DNA of 64,000 bases. It comes from Halobacteriovoraceae bacterium. Lineage in GTDB: Bacteria; Bdellovibrionota; Bacteriovoracia; Bacteriovoracales; Bacteriovoracaceae. Below the pieces are notes generated by a model. It was not told where the DNA came from. It saw only the letters and a program-made list of their open reading frames with translations, and searched no databases. A program made the position numbers and the translations under genes. Of the stretch, positions 20,318 to 28,702 are shown one piece after another (the stretch's first letter is position 1; every line of letters begins with the position of its first letter). The DNA is taken from contig PASP01000004.1 in assembly GCA_002712005.1 (NCBI GenBank), positions 548,064-612,063 on the forward strand, in the 5' to 3' direction.

Positions 20318-20392
20318 CGGAATGTAGCGCAGGGGTAGCGCGTTCGTCTGGGGGGCGAAAGGTCGCTGGTTCAATTCCAGTCATTCCGACCA
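20318..20392 (+). tRNA. tRNA-Pro (anticodon GGG)
   Basis: The cloverleaf is complete: acceptor CGGAATG/CATTCCG, D-arm GCGC/GCGC, anticodon stem TTCGT/GCGAA with loop CTGGGGG (anticodon GGG), and T-arm GCTGG/CCAGT with TTCAATT. The CCA end is encoded. The 3' 12 nt belong to the 21-bp core that is repeated at 28682-28702, so the integrated element keeps the tRNA intact. Confidence 0.97.
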
Positions 20393-20401
20393 TTCTAAAA
20401 A
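20381..20401 (+). repeat. Left attachment core (attL) of the integrated element
   Basis: Twenty-one bases from TCATTCCGACCA to TTCTAAAAA are identical to 28682-28702. They cover the 3' end of tRNA-Pro and nine bases beyond CCA. Sequence before and after the core differs between the two copies, except for a shared GCC nearby. Confidence 0.92.
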
Positions 20402-20428
20402 GGCCAGTTTTAAGATCTGGCCTTTTTT
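20401..20428 (+). terminator. Intrinsic terminator after tRNA-Pro
   Basis: AGGCCAG and CTGGCCT form a 7-bp GC-rich stem around TTTTAAGAT, followed by a T-run. It lies just inside the element, so the element brings in a terminator for the tRNA transcript. Confidence 0.85.
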
Positions 20429-20491
20429 ATTTCTAAATATTCGATTTAATTACAAACCTGATAATCAATAGTTACTTAAGGTCTTCTTCTC

Positions 20492-20521
20492 AATATTTCG
20501 TTACATTTCGTTACATTTCAC
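20492..20521 (-). repeat. Three phased 10-bp repeats near the left end of the element
   Basis: Read on the minus strand, three adjacent 10-bp units are GTGAAATGTA, ACGAAATGTA and ACGAAATATT. They share the CGAAAT core with the four units at 27197-27236, which lie on the plus strand. They sit about 90 bp inside the left core, where integrase arm sites or Xis sites are expected. Confidence 0.75.
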
Positions 20522-20563
20522 TAATTGCTACCTTTTTGCTTCCTTCTCGCTACCAATACCCAG

Positions 20564-21547
20564 TTACAAAACACTAAGCCTCTCAACAAGCATAGAGCGG
20601 TCTGCTTTATGCTCTGTTTTGTATGCCAATAAGTACTTAACCCCATCTTTAGCAGCAATTATTATTCGTTTCTTACCACTCCTTCCATCCCCATTTCCAT
20701 TTACATTAGCAGGAACAACGTCGCATCTAGAAATACTATATCCAGATAATCGAGGAGGAGTATGATTATGCCAATCAATGCTATTTTTATGAAACTCATC
20801 ACCGTTCTGGCACGAAGGTAATACAGTTCCCCTTAAAGCACTCAAACATATCATTTTAAAATCAGAAGACTTTGTGCTTCTAATGTCATTCATAAAGCAA
20901 TCAGTAATAACCACATCTCTAAAGCTCTTTAGTAACTCATTCTCTATTCCAAGCATGAAAGCTTGAATTAAAGCATATTGGAAGAATAGTTCTTTAGTAA
21001 ACTCTCTTTTTCTTCCCAAAACATCTTCAATTTTTAAGTTATAAGTATTTAAAAGGTCGGTAATTTTAGTATTATTTGGAACAAGCGGCTGTTCTGTAAA
21101 AGCAAGTGAACAAGCATAGTTTGATAAACAAATATTGCAAATATTCTTCTCAACATTCTGGTTTAATCTATCAACAAAAATCGGTAATATTCTTTCAAAC
21201 ATAGTATTAACTATAAGCCTAGAAATAGTTTCACCTTTTACATCTTCAGGTAAGAGATCAATGACCTCCTCTCTATCACAGTCCTCCTTTTTCAAAGGAG
21301 TATCATATAGGATTATTCCACATTGATCATCTTCTTCAATCATTAGACACAGAGACCTTATGTGAGCGGGAAACATCATTGAAGACATAAGCTCCTTTGG
21401 AATTAATATACTAACAAAGTTTCTCCATGTACCTGCGAACTGATAAAGTTGCTCCATAAAAAAATAACTATTGTCGAAATCCAAACAGCTTTGAATTTCC
21501 TTAAATTGCCTTGGTGATATTAAAGCGATGACTTGATTAAAGGACAT
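20564..21547 (-). CDS. Unrecognised partner of the AAA ATPase (candidate defence effector)
   Basis: This 327-residue protein has no domain I recognise. It starts at the A shared with the ATPase stop codon (TAATG), so its translation is coupled to the ATPase. The N-terminal half is helical. A small Cys group (NICNICLSNYAC, near residue 140) could bind metal but is not a standard zinc finger. The last 80 residues hold DWHNHTPPRLSGYSISRCD and a Gly/Asn-rich turn followed by GKKRIIIAAKDGVKYLLAY, which looks like a compact beta-rich end. It is the last gene before the left att site. In satellites and prophages this place is often used for defence cargo. Nuclease or other effector activity is a guess; no catalytic motif is certain. 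Confidence 0.7.
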   Translation of the reverse strand: MSFNQVIALISPRQFKEIQSCLDFDNSYFFMEQLYQFAGTWRNFVSILIPKELMSSMMFPAHIRSLCLMIEEDDQCGIILYDTPLKKEDCDREEVIDLLPEDVKGETISRLIVNTMFERILPIFVDRLNQNVEKNICNICLSNYACSLAFTEQPLVPNNTKITDLLNTYNLKIEDVLGRKREFTKELFFQYALIQAFMLGIENELLKSFRDVVITDCFMNDIRSTKSSDFKMICLSALRGTVLPSCQNGDEFHKNSIDWHNHTPPRLSGYSISRCDVVPANVNGNGDGRSGKKRIIIAAKDGVKYLLAYKTEHKADRSMLVERLSVL

Positions 21548-23052
21548 TAGATTCCCATCTTCTGCTTTCGTATTTTGTTTAAATCAGCAGATAGTTTTTT
21601 CCTTTCATCCATAAACCCTTCTGGAGTATTTTCAAAAAACCCTAGAGAATCAAAATCCACTTTTCTAGAAATTGATGTACCTTTAGAGAATTCAATCCAA
21701 TACATTTTAAGAACACTTTCCAGTTTCGGATCTTCGATTTGTAGATTAATCAACTTTTGTAAAAAGGTCTCACTATGAGTCTCTATGAACATAATTTTCC
21801 CAATAGTCGACATCTCTACAAAAAAGTTCGCCAAAAGAGTTTGCATTTTAGGGTGTAAGTGAATTTCAGGCTCATCGATAATTGTAAAACTACCATGTGG
21901 GGCCGTTAAGATTTTAAAAATAATCGGAATTACTTGGCTAACCCCGAAGCCCATTTGATTAATAGGATGCAGACGTCCATTCTTCTTCAACATAATTTCA
22001 GTTGAGTACCCTTCAACCAATTCACGAATATGAATAGACTCTCCCAACTTAAAAAAGTCGCACACCCAATAAGTTAGAGCCTCCTCTACTGTCGCTTTTT
22101 CAAAAAGCTCAGCCCCGTCATCAGGTTTTCGGTATGAGATTAATTTATCCTTTATATCAATAAACTGAAAAAGAGGATTAGGATTATCTCCTTCTGTATA
22201 TACTCTTCGAGGAGCCCCTCTAAAAGCAGGTATATACTGAAAGCTATTCCCTAAATCTTGTAATAAATATACCTCATAATGATTTACTCTTAATGGAATA
22301 TCTTTTTTTAAAACTTCTTTAAAATCTTTAGAAGAAAAGAAACCTACATATTTTGAAACAATTATATTTTTAATATTTTCAGCATCGATCGAAAAAGAAT
22401 CTAAAAAAAGACCCTCCCTAAATCTCACCTTTCGAACGCCCCTGAAACTAACATCACTCAGAAATAATGAATCATAGTCTAGTTCATCAAGTAGAGCCTC
22501 TTTCTCTGTTTCCTCCAATGAGGACTTTTCAATACCTACTTCAATATTTCTTTTTATCTTTGAAAATGTAGAGGCATCTTCAAAGTAAAACATTCTAGCT
22601 CCATGAATATCGTAAGAGTCACTTGACTCTTCGTAACGAAAATAAAGGTTATCCTTATCTGATTGATATTTAAAATCTAGAAGGTGATATCCCATTTCAT
22701 TACTTTTATTCGATTTTATATAATCGCTATCTCTGAAGATAAATTCAAAGGTATTTTTCTTAGAACTTTCGATAAGGAACCTTAAGTTAGGATTGCCTTC
22801 ATCAGACCGTAACTCTAAGCGATTTCCCATATTTATGTAGTTACCATTTAAATTCAAAATGGCATTTGGCGTTTTAAAGATATTACTTCGTCCAGAAATT
22901 ATCCCCAAAGATTGAGCAAAAAGTAACAAGACTTGATACACAGAACTTTTACCAGAGCTATTTTCACCAGATACGACAGTTATATTTGAAAACTCTACTC
23001 TCGTCTTATTTTTGAAGGCTTTAAAGTTTTCCATCTCTATAGTGTGAAACAT
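21547..23052 (-). CDS. ABC/SMC-type AAA family ATPase (AAA_15/AAA_21, DUF3696-like end)
   Basis: The 501-residue protein begins with an RecF/SMC-like core (IEMENFKAFKNKTRVEF) and Walker A GENSSGKSS at residues 29-37. The ABC-like signature GFGVSQVIPII is near 368-378, Walker B FTIIDEPEIHLHP at 389-401, and the switch ETHSE near 426-430. The C-terminal NTPEGFMDERKKL resembles the DUF3696 ending seen in many AAA ATPases of mobile elements. The long middle part is the usual insert that replaces the coiled coil. Such ATPases are the sensor or motor part of many two-gene phage-defence systems, including Gabija-, Septu-, OLD- and PARIS-like ones, but the partner here matches none I know. The start codon follows GGGG at 6 nt spacing, directly after an intrinsic terminator. 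Confidence 0.88.
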   Translation of the reverse strand: MFHTIEMENFKAFKNKTRVEFSNITVVSGENSSGKSSVYQVLLLFAQSLGIISGRSNIFKTPNAILNLNGNYINMGNRLELRSDEGNPNLRFLIESSKKNTFEFIFRDSDYIKSNKSNEMGYHLLDFKYQSDKDNLYFRYEESSDSYDIHGARMFYFEDASTFSKIKRNIEVGIEKSSLEETEKEALLDELDYDSLFLSDVSFRGVRKVRFREGLFLDSFSIDAENIKNIIVSKYVGFFSSKDFKEVLKKDIPLRVNHYEVYLLQDLGNSFQYIPAFRGAPRRVYTEGDNPNPLFQFIDIKDKLISYRKPDDGAELFEKATVEEALTYWVCDFFKLGESIHIRELVEGYSTEIMLKKNGRLHPINQMGFGVSQVIPIIFKILTAPHGSFTIIDEPEIHLHPKMQTLLANFFVEMSTIGKIMFIETHSETFLQKLINLQIEDPKLESVLKMYWIEFSKGTSISRKVDFDSLGFFENTPEGFMDERKKLSADLNKIRKQKMGI

Positions 23053-23062
23053 AATTCCCCAT

Positions 23063-23095
23063 AAAAAAAAACCCCATACTTAATTGCATGGGGTT
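23063..23095 (-). terminator. Intrinsic terminator/attenuator directly before the ATPase gene
   Basis: On the minus strand AACCCCAT, a 10-nt loop and ATGGGGTT form a perfect 8-bp stem followed by nine T. It lies between the 35-codon ORF and the ATPase start, which is only 10 nt past the T-run. The first stem arm could also pair with ATGGGG at 23057-23062, which is the ATPase ribosome-binding region. Confidence 0.85.
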
Positions 23096-23128
23096 CAATA
23101 TTAAGATTAATTAAAAGTCATTGTTGAA

Positions 23129-23236
23129 CTATTCAGCTTCTTCCAAGAATAAAGATTTCAACTGCTCTTTCAACTCTTGATCTGCCTCACGAAGCATCTC
23201 TTCTTCTGTAATAGCATCACTGTTATAATCGATCAT
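23129..23236 (-). CDS. 35-residue acidic peptide upstream of the ATPase operon
   Basis: The short frame MIDYNSDAITEEEMLREAD... ends LFLEEAE and a TAG stop. It has a very good ribosome site (AAGGAG, 6 nt before the ATG). It is acidic and predicted helical, with no signal peptide. It is the first frame of the minus-strand transcript that leads, through an intrinsic terminator, into the ATPase and its partner. It could be a leader peptide controlling read-through, a small antitoxin-like or trigger component, or an unrelated small satellite protein. Its strong translation signal is what supports it; composition alone would not. Confidence 0.65.
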   Translation of the reverse strand: MIDYNSDAITEEEMLREADQELKEQLKSLFLEEAE

Positions 23237-23275
23237 GTTAAACTCCTTTTCTATATTCTACTGTATCGGCATAAA

Positions 23276-23357
23276 GCAAATTTAACCTTAGGGAAAATTT
23301 GCCTACACTTATCATTATATCAATAACTTATGCAAGAATTGTTAAATAAAAGTGTAG
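23276..23357. promoter_or_regulatory. Two inverted repeats in the ATPase/terS divergent gap
   Basis: GCAAATTT (23276-23283) pairs with AAATTTGC (23295-23302). Immediately after it, CTACACTT (23303-23310) pairs with AAGTGTAG (23350-23357). Both are perfect 8-bp inverted repeats. They lie between two divergently read gene groups, as expected for operators of a satellite master regulator, but no protein is shown to bind. Confidence 0.45.
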
Positions 23358-23478
23358 ATATTTCAAGTTTTGTATTACATTTCTTTCTCTGCATCACACA
23401 ATAAAAAACTAGATAAATTTCAATTACTCTATATTTTTGTTAAAATACAATGAGTTAGTCTCCTTCCCTGAGGTTTAT

Positions 23479-24015
23479 ATGACTCACTTAACAAAAAAAG
23501 AAACTGCGTTCAGTCAAGAATATATTATAGACTTAAATGCAACAGCGGCTTGCAAACGGGCTGGTTACTCAGAGAAATCAGCCGACAAAATTGCTCACCA
23601 ATTACTAGGGAAAACTAGAGTTCAAGAAGAAATTCAAAGACTCCAAAAAGAAAGATCAATCAGAACTCAGATTACAGCTGATAAGGTTCTTCAAGAATTA
23701 GCAGCTGTTGCCTTTGCGCGAGTCCCAGAAATCATGGCAGCCATAGAAGAAGGAAAAGAAGACTTCCCTGCTTATGCTGCATTAAAAACAGTTAAGAATA
23801 CGCAAAGCAAGAATGGGGAATCAACACTCAATATATCTATTGATGGAAAAGTTAAGGCTCTAGAGTTACTTGGAAAGCATCTTGGTATGTTTGATAAGAA
23901 AGATAAAAAGTCTCCACTTGATAGAGAAAGAAGTCTTGATCGAATCAGAGGGGCTATTCGTAGAGTCAAAGAGTCACATGCGAAAATTAACCAACCTTCG
24001 CAACCAACTCAGTGA
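23479..24015 (+). CDS. Phage terminase small subunit (TerS, Terminase_2 type)
   Basis: About 178 residues from the ATG at 23479, which has a GAGG at proper spacing. A TTG 42 nt upstream has no such site. The N-terminal domain is the DNA-binding part of the Terminase_2 family: LTKKETAFSQEYIIDLNATAACKRAGYSEKSADKIAHQLL, followed by the conserved VQEEIQ and a central helical oligomerisation part. The KVKALELLGKHLGMF motif follows near residues 130-145. TerS recognises the packaging site and brings the large subunit. No large subunit is near, so it must act with a helper phage's TerL or be a relic. The last 29 bp overlap the end of the convergent 353-aa-type gene. In SaPI/PICI satellites a lone TerS redirects packaging. 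Confidence 0.88.
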   Translation: MTHLTKKETAFSQEYIIDLNATAACKRAGYSEKSADKIAHQLLGKTRVQEEIQRLQKERSIRTQITADKVLQELAAVAFARVPEIMAAIEEGKEDFPAYAALKTVKNTQSKNGESTLNISIDGKVKALELLGKHLGMFDKKDKKSPLDRERSLDRIRGAIRRVKESHAKINQPSQPTQ

Positions 24016-25039
24016 GTCTTAGGTTTCCAGTCTCTAACCTTTCAGCATAATCCATTCTTTCTGATATTCTTGTAGCAAGACCCCTCGCGACCACAGCAAA
24101 CGCAATTCCAGCAACTGGAGAGGCAACACAAGCTAAAAACTCTAGCTCGGCTAACAAAGCCCCCTCTAAGACCAGAGAGCGGCCTGCAAATGCTCCGAGA
24201 GTTCCAATACTATTGATAGTTACATTTTTAGGAAGTGAGCTTAGAACGAGATTTAGATCCCTATAAGCATACCATTGGAAAAAGGATTGAATTACAGTAG
24301 CAATAGCAACAGGTCCAGCAATACTCTCAAAGAACTCACTATTGATCTCTGAGATTTGGCCGTTTAAACCATCTCTAATTTCTTCCCTTGATAAACCAAG
24401 GTCTTCAATCTTATTGGCCAAACCTAAACGAGCAGCCTTCTCTCTAACTTCATCAAATATTTCACTGTTAACAGCAAAGTTTGGATACTCTCCTACAATT
24501 TCGTGACTACCATCAGCATTTATCCAATTCACATCTTTAAGATCAATTTTCTCATTAACCTCATGAATCTTCTCAATAACCTTATCTGCATCTGAATAAA
24601 CTTTTATTTGAATATATTCTTTCCCTGTATCAGTGAACCTTACTGCATCTACAGCCTCTTGATTTGATACGTGAGCTAGGTTTATAGATCCATTAGAAAG
24701 ATCCTCAAATCTTAATTCTGCGATAGCTCCTTGTAGCTGATTAATCACTCCACCGATAGATTCATCACCATTCATCATTTTAGATATTAAGAATTCTTTG
24801 ACTTCATTTGTAGAGGAGAATGCCTCTCTTTTAATTAGCTCCACTGCACCGATGATTTCAGGATTAAGGTTTACATCAACAAGGCCATCACCAATTAGAA
24901 TATCTGCTAAAACTAGATTTGGAGCTAATGAATATCCAAGGACTTCATCAATGATTCTCTCATTTTCCCATCTTAATACAGTCTTTGAAATACCATTACC
25001 TCTTGAGGGATATTTCTTAGAGAACTTTTTTATGCTCAT
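23987..25039 (-). CDS. Unknown satellite protein: nuclease-like core plus hydrophobic C-terminus
   Basis: About 350 residues from the ATG at 25039, which has GGAAGG 8 nt upstream and overlaps the end of the 119-aa gene by 23 bp. The middle region contains GAIAELRFEDL, then EAVDAVRF and YIQIKVYSD. The order Glu...Asp...Gln-x-Lys recalls the PD-(D/E)XK nuclease core, but the match is short and unconfirmed. The C-terminal third has Ala/Gly-rich hydrophobic segments (AFAGRSLVLEGALLAELEFLACVASPVAGIAFAVVA) that could cross or insert into a membrane. With the small coiled-coil partner upstream it may be an effector/partner pair. No known toxin family is evident. It converges on and overlaps the terS end. 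Confidence 0.65.
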   Translation of the reverse strand: MSIKKFSKKYPSRGNGISKTVLRWENERIIDEVLGYSLAPNLVLADILIGDGLVDVNLNPEIIGAVELIKREAFSSTNEVKEFLISKMMNGDESIGGVINQLQGAIAELRFEDLSNGSINLAHVSNQEAVDAVRFTDTGKEYIQIKVYSDADKVIEKIHEVNEKIDLKDVNWINADGSHEIVGEYPNFAVNSEIFDEVREKAARLGLANKIEDLGLSREEIRDGLNGQISEINSEFFESIAGPVAIATVIQSFFQWYAYRDLNLVLSSLPKNVTINSIGTLGAFAGRSLVLEGALLAELEFLACVASPVAGIAFAVVARGLATRISERMDYAERLETGNLRLTELVAKVG

Positions 25040-25376
25040 GACCTTCCAACCTTTGTTCAAGTTCCTCAATTCTCTGAAGTGCTTCCTCTAGCTTAGTGGC
25101 CAAGATGTCATTATATGTATCTTGAATTGTTAAGCGCTCTTCTACTAAGGCCAAAAGTTTTTTCCCTGATATTTCATCTAGTGCATTTGAGGCATCACCA
25201 CTTAGCTTTGAAGCTTTCTTACCAACCTCTGTAGACATCACAGTTTTTGTAGCAGCATCTAGTCTCTCTGAAACCTTATGCTCTTCTAGGGCCTTTTTGA
25301 GCTCACTAGAACCCTTAGATAAAGTTTCTTCTGCAAAGTTCAAAATAGAACCTAGCCCATTTGATTTCTTGGTCAT
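25017..25376 (-). CDS. Small coiled-coil protein, partner of the downstream unknown gene
   Basis: This 119-residue protein is almost entirely helical and charged. Its last third has heptad-like spacing (LATKLEEALQRIEELEQRLEGHE), suggesting a coiled coil for dimerisation. The first part has Lys/Ser-rich amphipathic segments. It starts at an ATG with AGAGG 6 nt upstream, and overlaps the start of the next gene by 23 bp, so the two are translationally coupled. No family is recognised. It could be a chaperone, adaptor or antitoxin-like partner. The divergent XRE gene shares its promoter region. Confidence 0.65.
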   Translation of the reverse strand: MTKKSNGLGSILNFAEETLSKGSSELKKALEEHKVSERLDAATKTVMSTEVGKKASKLSGDASNALDEISGKKLLALVEERLTIQDTYNDILATKLEEALQRIEELEQRLEGHEHKKVL

Positions 25377-25395
25377 AAATACCTCTCAAAATACA

Positions 25396-25425
25396 TACTA
25401 TCGGACGTACTCCTGATCGGTAGTA
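25396..25425. promoter_or_regulatory. Imperfect inverted repeat between the 119-aa gene and xre (operator candidate)
   Basis: TACTATCGGAC and the complement of GATCGGTAGTA (TACTACCGATC) match at 8 of 11 positions around a short spacer. The gap of 66 bp between the divergent genes makes this the natural site for autoregulation by the XRE protein. Confidence 0.5.
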
Positions 25426-25442
25426 AATGAAAGAATATTAGT

Positions 25443-25676
25443 ATGTATTCCAAGAAACAGGATGAAGCCTTTCTCAAAGAGTTTGGACTTCGTATAAGAC
25501 AGCTAAGAACCGATAAAGGTTGGACTCTAGAAGAGACCGAGCTTCATGGTTGGCCATCTTGGAGACATCTTCAAAAGATTGAGGCTGGGAAAAATATCAC
25601 AATTCTGACGCTAAGAAAAATTGCTACTCTCTACAAAGTAAACTTTTCTGAACTCTTAGATGATCTACAAGATTAG
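25443..25676 (+). CDS. XRE/Cro-CI family regulator
   Basis: The 77-residue protein is a single HTH_3 domain: LKEFGLRIRQLRTDKGWTLEE, a recognition helix region PSWRHLQKIEAGKN, and ITILTLRKIATLYKVNFSELL at the C-terminus. It lacks a dimerisation or sensor domain, so it resembles Cro or the small regulators of satellites. It is divergent from the 119-aa/350-aa pair and convergent with the DUF559 gene, overlapping it by 4 bp. The inverted repeat at 25396-25425 is its likely binding site. Confidence 0.9.
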   Translation: MYSKKQDEAFLKEFGLRIRQLRTDKGWTLEETELHGWPSWRHLQKIEAGKNITILTLRKIATLYKVNFSELLDDLQD

Positions 25677-26275
25677 CAATATCCACAAGAACTGAAATAA
25701 TCATTAACAAATTGAAGATTGAGATTTTTATAAATCGTATGAGTATACAGCTTCTTTAGAAGATTCTTTCTTTGTGTGAAACTCTTCTTTTTACTTTGTT
25801 GAATGAGTGACTTTAATAACTCTTCAGCATTGTAAGTAATATCTTCATTTAAAATTACAAGACAATAGCATCCAAGATTATGAATAAGCTCATCTCTAGT
25901 TCTATCTTTACCCATTTTATTTTCATTATTATGAATAGACCCATCAACTTCAATGAAGATGCCATAATCAATTAAATAGAAATCAATAGATCTATGGCCA
26001 ACTCTAATAGAGGGAATAAACTTAATCTTTTGCTTCTTTAGTATTGCCTCTAAGTACAATTCACTCTCAGTCCTAACTTCATCTAGATTTAGCTCTCTTC
26101 TAAGTTTTCGACATGCAATTAGATAAAGTCCTTTCAAGTCTTCCAAGAATTTCTTATTTCTATTCTTACGACTCAAAGCGTTTATTAGCTTAATAATTTC
26201 ATCTTCATGACTCAGGATACTCTCTAGCTTGATTAACTCCTGATGCTCTAACCTTAGATCTCTTGAAATTCCCAT
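25673..26275 (-). CDS. DUF559-type (restriction endonuclease-like fold) protein
   Basis: About 200 residues from the ATG at 26275; a TTG nine nt upstream is an alternative. The first 80 residues are a basic helical region. Residues about 75-150 fit the DUF559/Vsr-like nuclease fold: ESELYLEAILKKQKIKFIPS, then VGHRSIDFYLIDYGIFIEVDGSIHN, and RDELIHNLGCYCLVILNEDI. The conserved Glu, Asp and E-V-D-G residues give the expected metal site. DUF559 proteins occur in mobile elements and near restriction genes, with mostly unproved function. The C-terminus has a Lys/Gln-rich segment and ends SSCGYC. It may cut DNA of competing phage or take part in element processing. Confidence 0.8.
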   Translation of the reverse strand: MGISRDLRLEHQELIKLESILSHEDEIIKLINALSRKNRNKKFLEDLKGLYLIACRKLRRELNLDEVRTESELYLEAILKKQKIKFIPSIRVGHRSIDFYLIDYGIFIEVDGSIHNNENKMGKDRTRDELIHNLGCYCLVILNEDITYNAEELLKSLIQQSKKKSFTQRKNLLKKLYTHTIYKNLNLQFVNDYFSSCGYC

Positions 26276-26457
26276 ACACAACAACCTATCCGTTACAAAA
26301 TGCTTAACGGCCCAAACAGTAATTAAAACTGATAGTTACAACAATCTCCAACTCAACGAGTCGCAAAAAAGTTTTATTCTCTCTTGCCCTTGAAATTGGT
26401 GGTTGATATGACCAGTGGAGCACAGATTTAACTTTAATTGTTGGTACTTTTAGTGAC

Positions 26458-27162
26458 ATGAAACTTTCAATCGAACCTGAACATTTTAAATATATCGACC
26501 CTAAAGATATTGGTGACTTTGAGCCACAAGAAGTCTCTACAATTCTCGATAATTATTGGAATAAGTACCTAGTTAATGAGCTTGAGAACCACAACCTAGA
26601 AGAAGATAGAGTGAAGAACTATATTCTATCGCTCTTAAGCCTAATGCATCCAAAATCCAAAACTGGATCACTAGAAGATAATGCAAAAAAGAAGCAAAAA
26701 GAGCGTATTCTCAAATCATTCAATCTTCATAAGACTCAACTAGAAGAAGTAAATAGCTCTATTCGATCACTCCCTCTAAAGCACTCAAGGGTATTAGAGC
26801 TTACTTACTATCTTCTCTATGGAAATAAGAATAAGTTTTCAAAAGAGCTAAAGTTCAAGTCATTGCACAAAGGCTGTATGTTCACAGCAAAACTTCTTTG
26901 CCTCCTAGGCCTTGATAACAATGATTCAGAAGAGAATCAAAAGTTTCTATCGGTTCTCTCTCAACTCGATAACCCTGAAATCGTCGACGAATACAAGTTA
27001 AACCTACTCAATGACAGGGCCATGATCACTTCACAATCCCTTAGAAAGAAGCTTAAAGACTATGACCCTTTTCAGACTGAAGGCTTCTACAAGGGATTTG
27101 CGCTATCCAGCACAAACAAAGTCATTAAAATCTCCAATGTCACTAAAAGTACCAACAATTAG
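26458..27162 (+). CDS. Unknown satellite protein upstream of xis (possible replication or regulatory role)
   Basis: This 234-residue protein has no recognised domain. It is mainly helical and charged, with a basic central part (LPLKHSRVLELTYYLLYGNKNK) followed by HKGCMFTAKLLCLLGLD. The mid-region resembles a helix-turn-helix or winged-helix arrangement but lacks a clear family motif. It lies alone on the plus strand, 77 bp before the excisionase-like gene, so the three may share a transcript. The place between the regulators and int is where small satellites often keep replication-initiation or induction genes; that role is only inferred. The 173-bp gap upstream (26285-26457) shows no clear gene. 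Confidence 0.65.
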   Translation: MKLSIEPEHFKYIDPKDIGDFEPQEVSTILDNYWNKYLVNELENHNLEEDRVKNYILSLLSLMHPKSKTGSLEDNAKKKQKERILKSFNLHKTQLEEVNSSIRSLPLKHSRVLELTYYLLYGNKNKFSKELKFKSLHKGCMFTAKLLCLLGLDNNDSEENQKFLSVLSQLDNPEIVDEYKLNLLNDRAMITSQSLRKKLKDYDPFQTEGFYKGFALSSTNKVIKISNVTKSTNN

Positions 27163-27196
27163 TTAAGAAACCTGCATATCCTCCATTTGTATCGAT

Positions 27197-27236
27197 ACGA
27201 AATATAACGAAATGCTATGAAATATAGCGAAATGGA
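27197..27236 (+). repeat. Four phased 10-bp repeats before the excisionase-like gene
   Basis: Four adjacent units are ACGAAATATA, ACGAAATGCT, ATGAAATATA and GCGAAATGGA. GAAAT recurs exactly every 10 bp, which puts the sites on one face of the helix. The last unit merges with the GGAG ribosome site of the next gene. The same unit occurs in reverse orientation near the left end (20492-20521). Confidence 0.85.
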
Positions 27237-27239
27237 GAT

Positions 27240-27458
27240 ATGAATATGGAAAGTATATTAAATTCGAATATTAGTGAAGAGTGGTTAGATTTTAAATCAG
27301 CTGCCAAGTACCTAGGGATAACAGAAAATAACCTCAGAATAAGAGTTCACAGAGGCCAAATGACCCCCTCAGGAAGACTAGGAAAGCTTTTAAAGTTTAA
27401 AAGAGAAGACCTTGATAATTATTTGATTATCTCTAACAAGGAGAGAATCAATGATTAA
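27240..27458 (+). CDS. xis: Excisionase-like helix-turn-helix protein (HTH_17/MerR-like)
   Basis: This 72-residue protein matches the small HTH_17 excisionase group: SEEWLDFKSAAKYLGITENNLRIRVHRGQMTPSGRLGKLLKFKREDLDNYL. These proteins bind repeated DNA sites and bend the DNA to steer the integrase toward excision. It starts at ATG 27240, right after the phased 10-bp repeats that are its probable binding sites, so it may also repress its own gene. It overlaps the integrase gene by 8 bp. Confidence 0.82.
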   Translation: MNMESILNSNISEEWLDFKSAAKYLGITENNLRIRVHRGQMTPSGRLGKLLKFKREDLDNYLIISNKERIND

Positions 27459-28608
27459 GCAATACACCTATCAAAACAAAAAATACTATATGGTTCAAAT
27501 AAGTGTAACGGGACCAAATGGTAAAAGATGCCAAAGAAAAGCTACAAAGAACCCTAGAACAAAAGCTCGATTTGCCTCTAAATTAGCTGCCTCCAAATAT
27601 GAATTTGAGTTCAGAAAAGAGGTTGAAGCAAAGCTTCTTGGTGAAATTGGTAATCCTACTTTTTCAGAGTGGCAAAGAACTTTCTTAAATCATTTTAGTA
27701 CACAGTTAAAAGTAGGAACAATGATGCAATACAATGGCGATCTTAAAAAATGGACTCCTCAATGGTTTATGAATAAGAGGATTAAAAATATCTCCAAGGA
27801 CGACTTAACGACTCTTATCTTTCGTGAGATGAAGCAAAAAGGTGCAACACAATTCACCCAAAAGAGAATTCTCAAAGGGATTAGAAGAGTGCTTCAGTAC
27901 GCATACGAAGAAGGAGTCATTGCCAGAAATCCATGCATAGGAATAAAAGTAGATATCCCTGAGAGAACTAAGGCAGTTCTAAACTCTTCAGAAGCGAGTA
28001 AGCTTCTTCTTGAAGCCAAACGAGTTGAACATAGGTTTTACTATATCTGGGCATTTGCTTTATTTTCAGGGCTAAGAAATGGTGAACTTTATGGACTTAG
28101 ATGGACTGATGTTGATCTAGAAGGAAGAAAGCTTCGTATTTCATCCCAATGGACAAATAAGGATGGCTATCATTCAACAAAGACCAGTAAGGTCAGAGTC
28201 GTACCAATAAATGATTCGCTTGAGAGAGTTTTAAAAGAACTTCGAAATATTGGTCCATTTGAAGAAGAGCTTAAAGGCCTTAAGAAAACAACAGTTTACT
28301 TTGATGACTTAGTTCTTCCTAGGCTTCGAGAATGGCGAAATGGTGAACAGGCCCAAGTTTTAAGAGAGTTTTGCAAAGCAATATGTATTACAAGTGTGAA
28401 GTTTCACGATTTAAGAGCAACGTTCATTACAAACCTCTTAAGTCAAAATACTCCTACTTCTGTAGTTATGGCGATTGCTGGACACTCAAAACTAAGTTCA
28501 ACAGAGCAGTATTTAAGATTAGCAGGTATTCCCGTACAAGGAGCAACTGATAACTTAAGCTTTGAGCTCCCCAAGCAAGTCTATGGCACAGTATTGAAAA
28601 TGATCTAA
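27451..28608 (+). CDS. int: Tyrosine recombinase (integrase)
   Basis: The 385-residue protein has an N-terminal arm-binding-like part (VQISVTGPNGKRCQRKATKN), a SAM-like core-binding domain (about 70-170), and the catalytic domain. The catalytic residues are in FSGLRNGELYGLRW (Arg), KFHDLRATFITNLL (His-x-x-Arg) and AGHSKLSSTEQYLR (His and nucleophile Tyr). It ends 73 bp before the right att core, as integrases do. It recombines the 21-bp core in tRNA-Pro. Translation is coupled to xis by the 8-bp overlap. The N-terminal arm-type domain suggests use of the 10-bp repeats as arm sites. Confidence 0.95.
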   Translation: MIKQYTYQNKKYYMVQISVTGPNGKRCQRKATKNPRTKARFASKLAASKYEFEFRKEVEAKLLGEIGNPTFSEWQRTFLNHFSTQLKVGTMMQYNGDLKKWTPQWFMNKRIKNISKDDLTTLIFREMKQKGATQFTQKRILKGIRRVLQYAYEEGVIARNPCIGIKVDIPERTKAVLNSSEASKLLLEAKRVEHRFYYIWAFALFSGLRNGELYGLRWTDVDLEGRKLRISSQWTNKDGYHSTKTSKVRVVPINDSLERVLKELRNIGPFEEELKGLKKTTVYFDDLVLPRLREWRNGEQAQVLREFCKAICITSVKFHDLRATFITNLLSQNTPTSVVMAIAGHSKLSSTEQYLRLAGIPVQGATDNLSFELPKQVYGTVLKMI

Positions 28609-28681
28609 CAATTGAAAATGTGACTTTGTGCTACCAAGTTTTTAAAAAGATCAATAAAGCTAGGTAGTTACAAAGTTACAT

Positions 28682-28702
28682 TCATTCCGACCATTCTAAA
28701 AA
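28682..28702 (+). repeat. Right attachment core (attR) of the integrated element
   Basis: Identical over 21 bp to 20381-20401. Beyond it, AGCCTAAAC differs from the left copy, so this is the old chromosome sequence that followed tRNA-Pro before integration. The stop of the next minus-strand gene lies 4 bp further on. Confidence 0.92.

Follow-up and report, generated by a model that had tools for sequence, protein, structure and literature searches.

A possible terminator valve ahead of a defence-like ATPase operon in a Halobacteriovoraceae bacterium

In the window analysed here, the whole stretch of 64,000 nt from a Halobacteriovoraceae bacterium related to predatory bacteria (GCA_002712005.1, contig PASP01000004.1, positions 548,064 to 612,063), a short leader ORF and an intrinsic terminator precede a two-gene operon encoding an ATPase and a partner protein. 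We consider it fairly probable that this 5' leader acts as a terminator valve, keeping expression low by requiring read-through. The reading is based on the anatomy of the region, on its statistical significance and on the retention of the layout in one close homologue. The ways in which bacteria silence potentially self-harming defence proteins until they are needed are little understood. Placing a terminator after a tiny ORF and ahead of a defence-like ATPase, an arrangement kept in a divergent relative, would be a simple and testable expression brake, and the layout gives a sequence signature by which similar control could be spotted in other operons.

Anatomy of the leader and the operon

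The leader ORF, the terminator, the ATPase and its partner are all on the minus strand of the window. The ATPase (21547-23052, 501 aa) is a DUF3696-like AAA_15/AAA_21 protein, with NsnB as the best PADLOC model (5e-52), and its start is well supported, M1 being aligned across homologues. The partner gene (20564-21547, 327 aa) overlaps the ATPase stop. No family match was found for the partner in Pfam, PADLOC, NCBIfam, PHROGs or PDB, and its structure prediction is poor (pLDDT 45). Its family is common only to the window and to Bdellovibrio bacteriovorus kdesi, with a C-x2-C cluster and a C-terminal SIDWH...RCDVV...SGxKR motif as conserved features. From family resemblance only, we infer a defence function and toxicity for this operon.

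The leader ORF (23129-23236) has 35 codons, encoding the acidic peptide MIDYNSDAITEEEMLREADQELKEQLKSLFLEEAE before its stop. It is entered through AAAAGGAG-TTTAAC-ATG (23250-23234), with a strong Shine-Dalgarno (SD) sequence, AAAAGGAG, at 23250-23243. Downstream, there is a stem-loop (23069-23096, -16.6 kcal/mol) with 8 pairs, or 11 considering the flanking pairs, and a nine-T tract (23063-23071). A GC-rich stem-loop with a T-run at once after it is what characterizes intrinsic terminators. The weak ATPase ribosome site ATGGGGAATT (23053-23062) and the ATPase ATG at 23052 follow, the distance from the T-run to the ATG being exactly 10 nt. A preliminary description of this DNA had reported the 35-codon frame with its strong ribosome site, an 8-bp stem with nine T and the ATPase start 10 nt further on, and all of these elements were recovered, with the stem extendable as above.

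When the 250 nt ahead of the ATPase were dinucleotide-shuffled, an equivalent terminator at 40 nt or less from the start never arose (0 of 3000, in the window and in kdesi alike), while an SD-led ORF arose in 33 of 3000 shuffles for the window and 15 of 3000 for kdesi. Compared with 174 terminators from 464 kb of the same genome, the window terminator is placed in the top 5% by its energy and in the top 8% by its T content. Since the 10 nt between the T-run and the ATG are too short for an ordinary promoter, the ATPase mRNA must pass the terminator, as previously proposed, and the kdesi layout is the same. It is possible that a leaderless ATPase transcript starts from a promoter within the hairpin.

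By accessibility, the ATPase SD in the window ranks within the bottom 0.3% of 329 genes, and that in kdesi only within the bottom 10%. In the predicted fold, the ribosome site pairs with early ATPase codons or with far-upstream sequence. The preliminary description had proposed translation control by an alternative stem, with the first arm of the terminator pairing with the ATGGGG that holds the ATPase ribosome site. The complementarity between CCCCAT and the downstream ATGGGG is present, but the pairing probability of this stem is 0.00, and it is half as stable as the terminator (-8.3 kcal/mol with the proper 3' arm blocked, versus about -17). Only part of that proposal is retained: the ribosome site does look buried by prediction, through pairings other than the alternative stem.

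The kdesi cassette and other homologues

Among 369 genomes of the phylum, B. bacteriovorus kdesi is the sole other one whose ATPase is comparably close (34-36% identity), and the only one with a clear homologue of the partner (25% identity, E 2e-29). No further close homologues were found in these genomes, in viral contigs, in plasmids or in phages. The kdesi ATPase is preceded, in order, by AAGGAGG-TAAA-ATG opening a 23-codon ORF, a gap of 34 nt and the hairpin ACCCTGCTTTTAGCAGGGT, which has -12.2 kcal/mol and carries nine T; the GTG of the ATPase is located 21 nt past the stem. The leader stop is separated from the ATPase start by 75 and 73 nt in the two cassettes, and from the stem by 32-34 nt, while the stem sequences are unrelated. 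Thus, the only close homologue has both the leader frame and the stem, the absence of which from homologous loci had been named in the preliminary description as the result that would speak against its proposal. The layout was kept while the sequence changed, which argues for function in these two cassettes of one phylum and suggests that the shared layout is a real expression brake.

Of 715 genes in 864 kb from both genomes, 17 have a terminator-like hairpin whose distance to their first possible start is 5-40 nt. Within these 17, the hairpin is combined with an ORF that opens with ATG and has a strong SD, defined as five or more consecutive SD bases, at the two ATPases alone; several of the others have SD-like matches that are weaker and stand ahead of short GTG or TTG frames. 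The leader and terminator layout was present in none of 53 viral ATPase loci; 18 further ATPase loci contained one weak 5-bp stem only, on a Pseudoalteromonas plasmid. The more distant ATPase homologues without the layout are seventy-odd, the one with the weak stem included. The layout is also absent in the other defence-type ATPases of the phylum, among those with a readable start.

The arrangement could be a product of chance or a relic: the terminator may once have served an upstream gene, since lost, with the ATPase landing behind it as the island was assembled. The cassette is mobile, as indicated by an integrase and tRNA-Pro attachment repeats, most ATPase homologues do not have the layout, and about 2-3% of genes in the window and kdesi genomes show some hairpin of terminator type close to where they are predicted to start. 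We nevertheless regard this origin as highly improbable, since the only close homologue keeps the layout at almost the same spacing while its sequence has diverged, and none of the shuffles mentioned above reproduced the terminator.

The window leader peptide has no relatives in the 369 genomes of the phylum, and the kdesi one, with 23 aa and rich in N, T and K, is unrelated to it. By inspection, neither peptide has a regulatory codon run, and no tandem repeats are found in either leader. In Rfam, there is no match above the gathering score, with sub-threshold matches only, mostly driven by the terminator. A frameshift fusion between leader and ATPase was discarded, as the leader frame relative to the ATPase differs between the two cassettes, and so was stop-codon read-through of the leader, given the tandem stops TAA TAG in kdesi.

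It is conceivable that the short ORF is a gene on its own, encoding an acidic small protein (an inhibitor or antitoxin), and that the terminator only sets its ratio to the ATPase. The strong SD and the good ORF are in line with this, and type III toxin-antitoxin systems follow such logic. Terminators internal to operons, between cotranscribed genes whose products are needed in unequal amounts, also seem to be present in the same genome as the window, before EF-G and DnaB-like genes. On the other side, the product of the kdesi ORF is not related and the window peptide is without relatives, and we consider this explanation rather unlikely. The hairpins concerned are terminator-like, lie 31-35 nt before the EF-G-like (fusA) gene (L103:3302, minus strand) and the DnaB-like gene (L121:11476, minus strand), and are probably intra-operon.

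Proposed mechanism and comparison with known systems

Under the terminator valve, a promoter located in the gap between the leader and the divergent small terminase gene would start the leader transcript. This transcript would carry a short and presumably well-translated ORF, followed by the strong intrinsic terminator, at which most transcripts would end. The ATPase and its partner would then come from the read-through fraction alone, resulting in low expression, and the buried ribosome site would dampen their translation further. A potentially harmful, defence-like effector composed of two proteins may be kept scarce in this way.

In equilibrium folds of the nascent RNA, the terminator has a mean probability of 0.92-0.99 in both cassettes, whether the leader is empty, has a ribosome at its stop or is fully covered, and no antiterminator was found in either cassette for the modelled ribosome states. 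A switch operated by leader translation, as suggested earlier, is not supported by this analysis, since the probability of the terminator is at least 0.92 with the leader empty or covered by ribosomes. Because the terminator forms in every ribosome state and there is no antiterminator, a passive valve is the best-supported mechanism.

We also considered a regulated attenuator, in which stalling at the leader or loss of its translation would let the polymerase pass or expose the ATPase ribosome site, the operon being induced on demand, for example by phage-induced translation stress. In both cassettes the terminator comes after a short, strongly SD-led ORF, which is compatible with this, as is the predicted occlusion of the ATPase ribosome site in the window, and there is a precedent in the E. 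coli topAI-yjhQ operon under the uORF toiL (PMC12121999). We judge it unlikely, however, given that the terminator would form with or without leader ribosomes, that no antiterminator is found, that the proposed alternative stem is not predicted to form and that there is neither a regulatory codon run nor peptide conservation. In addition, a ribosome at the leader stop cannot cover the stem, since this stop is 32-34 nt before it. Quite doubtful is the more specific case of a phage-responsive attenuator, where infection would raise read-through, by translation loss or by phage antitermination activity, and switch on the ATPase-partner operon, with the terminator working as a defence sensor.

By analogy, the nearest architecture to the proposed valve is the type III toxin-antitoxin operon (ToxIN, AbiQ, TenpIN, CptIN), in which a Rho-independent terminator between the antitoxin RNA and the toxin gene modulates toxin expression (PMC5086642). 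Both have a short upstream element, a Rho-independent terminator and an effector gene under one promoter. In the window, however, the upstream element is an ORF without tandem RNA repeats, and the effector gene encodes an AAA ATPase that is accompanied by a partner matching no family in Pfam, PADLOC or the PDB, with no ToxN-like family reported. Membership in the type III systems was ruled out by the lack of repeats and of a ToxN-like endoribonuclease. The best reading would be a known logic, a terminator between an upstream element and an effector, here with a putatively translated ORF replacing the RNA repeats.

The nearest uORF precedent, also by analogy, is toiL, which controls the E. coli topAI-yjhQ toxin-antitoxin operon via occlusion of the ribosome site and Rho termination; ribosome stalling opens the occluded site and prevents Rho termination (PMC12121999). 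The topAI-yjhQ-yjhP leader shares with the window a uORF in the 5' leader, an occluded downstream ribosome site and premature termination. In that operon, termination depends on Rho and occurs within the gene, and it is toiL that pairs with the ribosome site, whereas the window terminator is intrinsic and lies between the uORF and the gene. In amino-acid attenuators of the trp/his type, an intrinsic terminator likewise comes after a leader ORF, but the window has neither the antiterminator nor the regulatory codon run, and classical amino-acid attenuation was rejected on these two points. Other DUF3696/AAA_15 ATPase-plus-partner cassettes (NsnB-like or AriA-like) have the same ATPase family and two-gene order. 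They differ in having no upstream leader and terminator, and profile comparison detected no relationship for the two partners to which it was applied. In the literature searched, no report of a leader-terminator layout for a DUF3696 cassette was found.

Island context and upstream promoter region

The ATPase-partner cassette sits in an 8.3-kb tRNA-Pro island (20381-28702). The left attachment repeat (20381-20401, plus strand, 21 nt) lies in the 3' end of the tRNA-Pro gene (20318-20392), and an exact copy of it is found as the right repeat (28682-28702, plus strand, 21 nt). Homology with the same genus ends at 20401 in one genome (G005), in others it stops inside the tRNA end or close to it, and two same-genus genomes show a weaker similarity (75-77%) continuing to 20441. 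Two minus-strand ORFs of 360 and 119 aa, mutually overlapping, occupy 23987-25376; nothing in Pfam, PADLOC, NCBIfam or PHROGs matches the 360-aa ORF, and the 119-aa ORF gave no match in PHROGs, the one library used for it. The island also encodes an integrase, an excisionase-type HTH protein, an XRE-type regulator (25443-25676) and a small terminase subunit, which is the sole phage packaging gene found in it. This gene content suggests that the island is a candidate phage satellite of the lineage, and a defence function of the ATPase-partner cassette is therefore plausible.

The leader DNA has six short DNA matches within the family. Two of them are in leader or terminator sequence and were judged to be chance, one in a UvrD-like coding region and the other near a membrane-protein region. 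The remaining four, inspected as alignments, cover the AT-rich promoter region only. There, TGATATAAT (23314-23322, minus strand) is a candidate extended -10 element for the leader transcript, with a poor -35, and it is absent from the sigma-70 scan list. Close to the putative transcription start and next to this element, we found the perfect inverted repeat GCAAATTT-N11-AAATTTGC (23276-23302, minus strand), a possible operator of the leader promoter and perhaps a target of the XRE regulator of the island.
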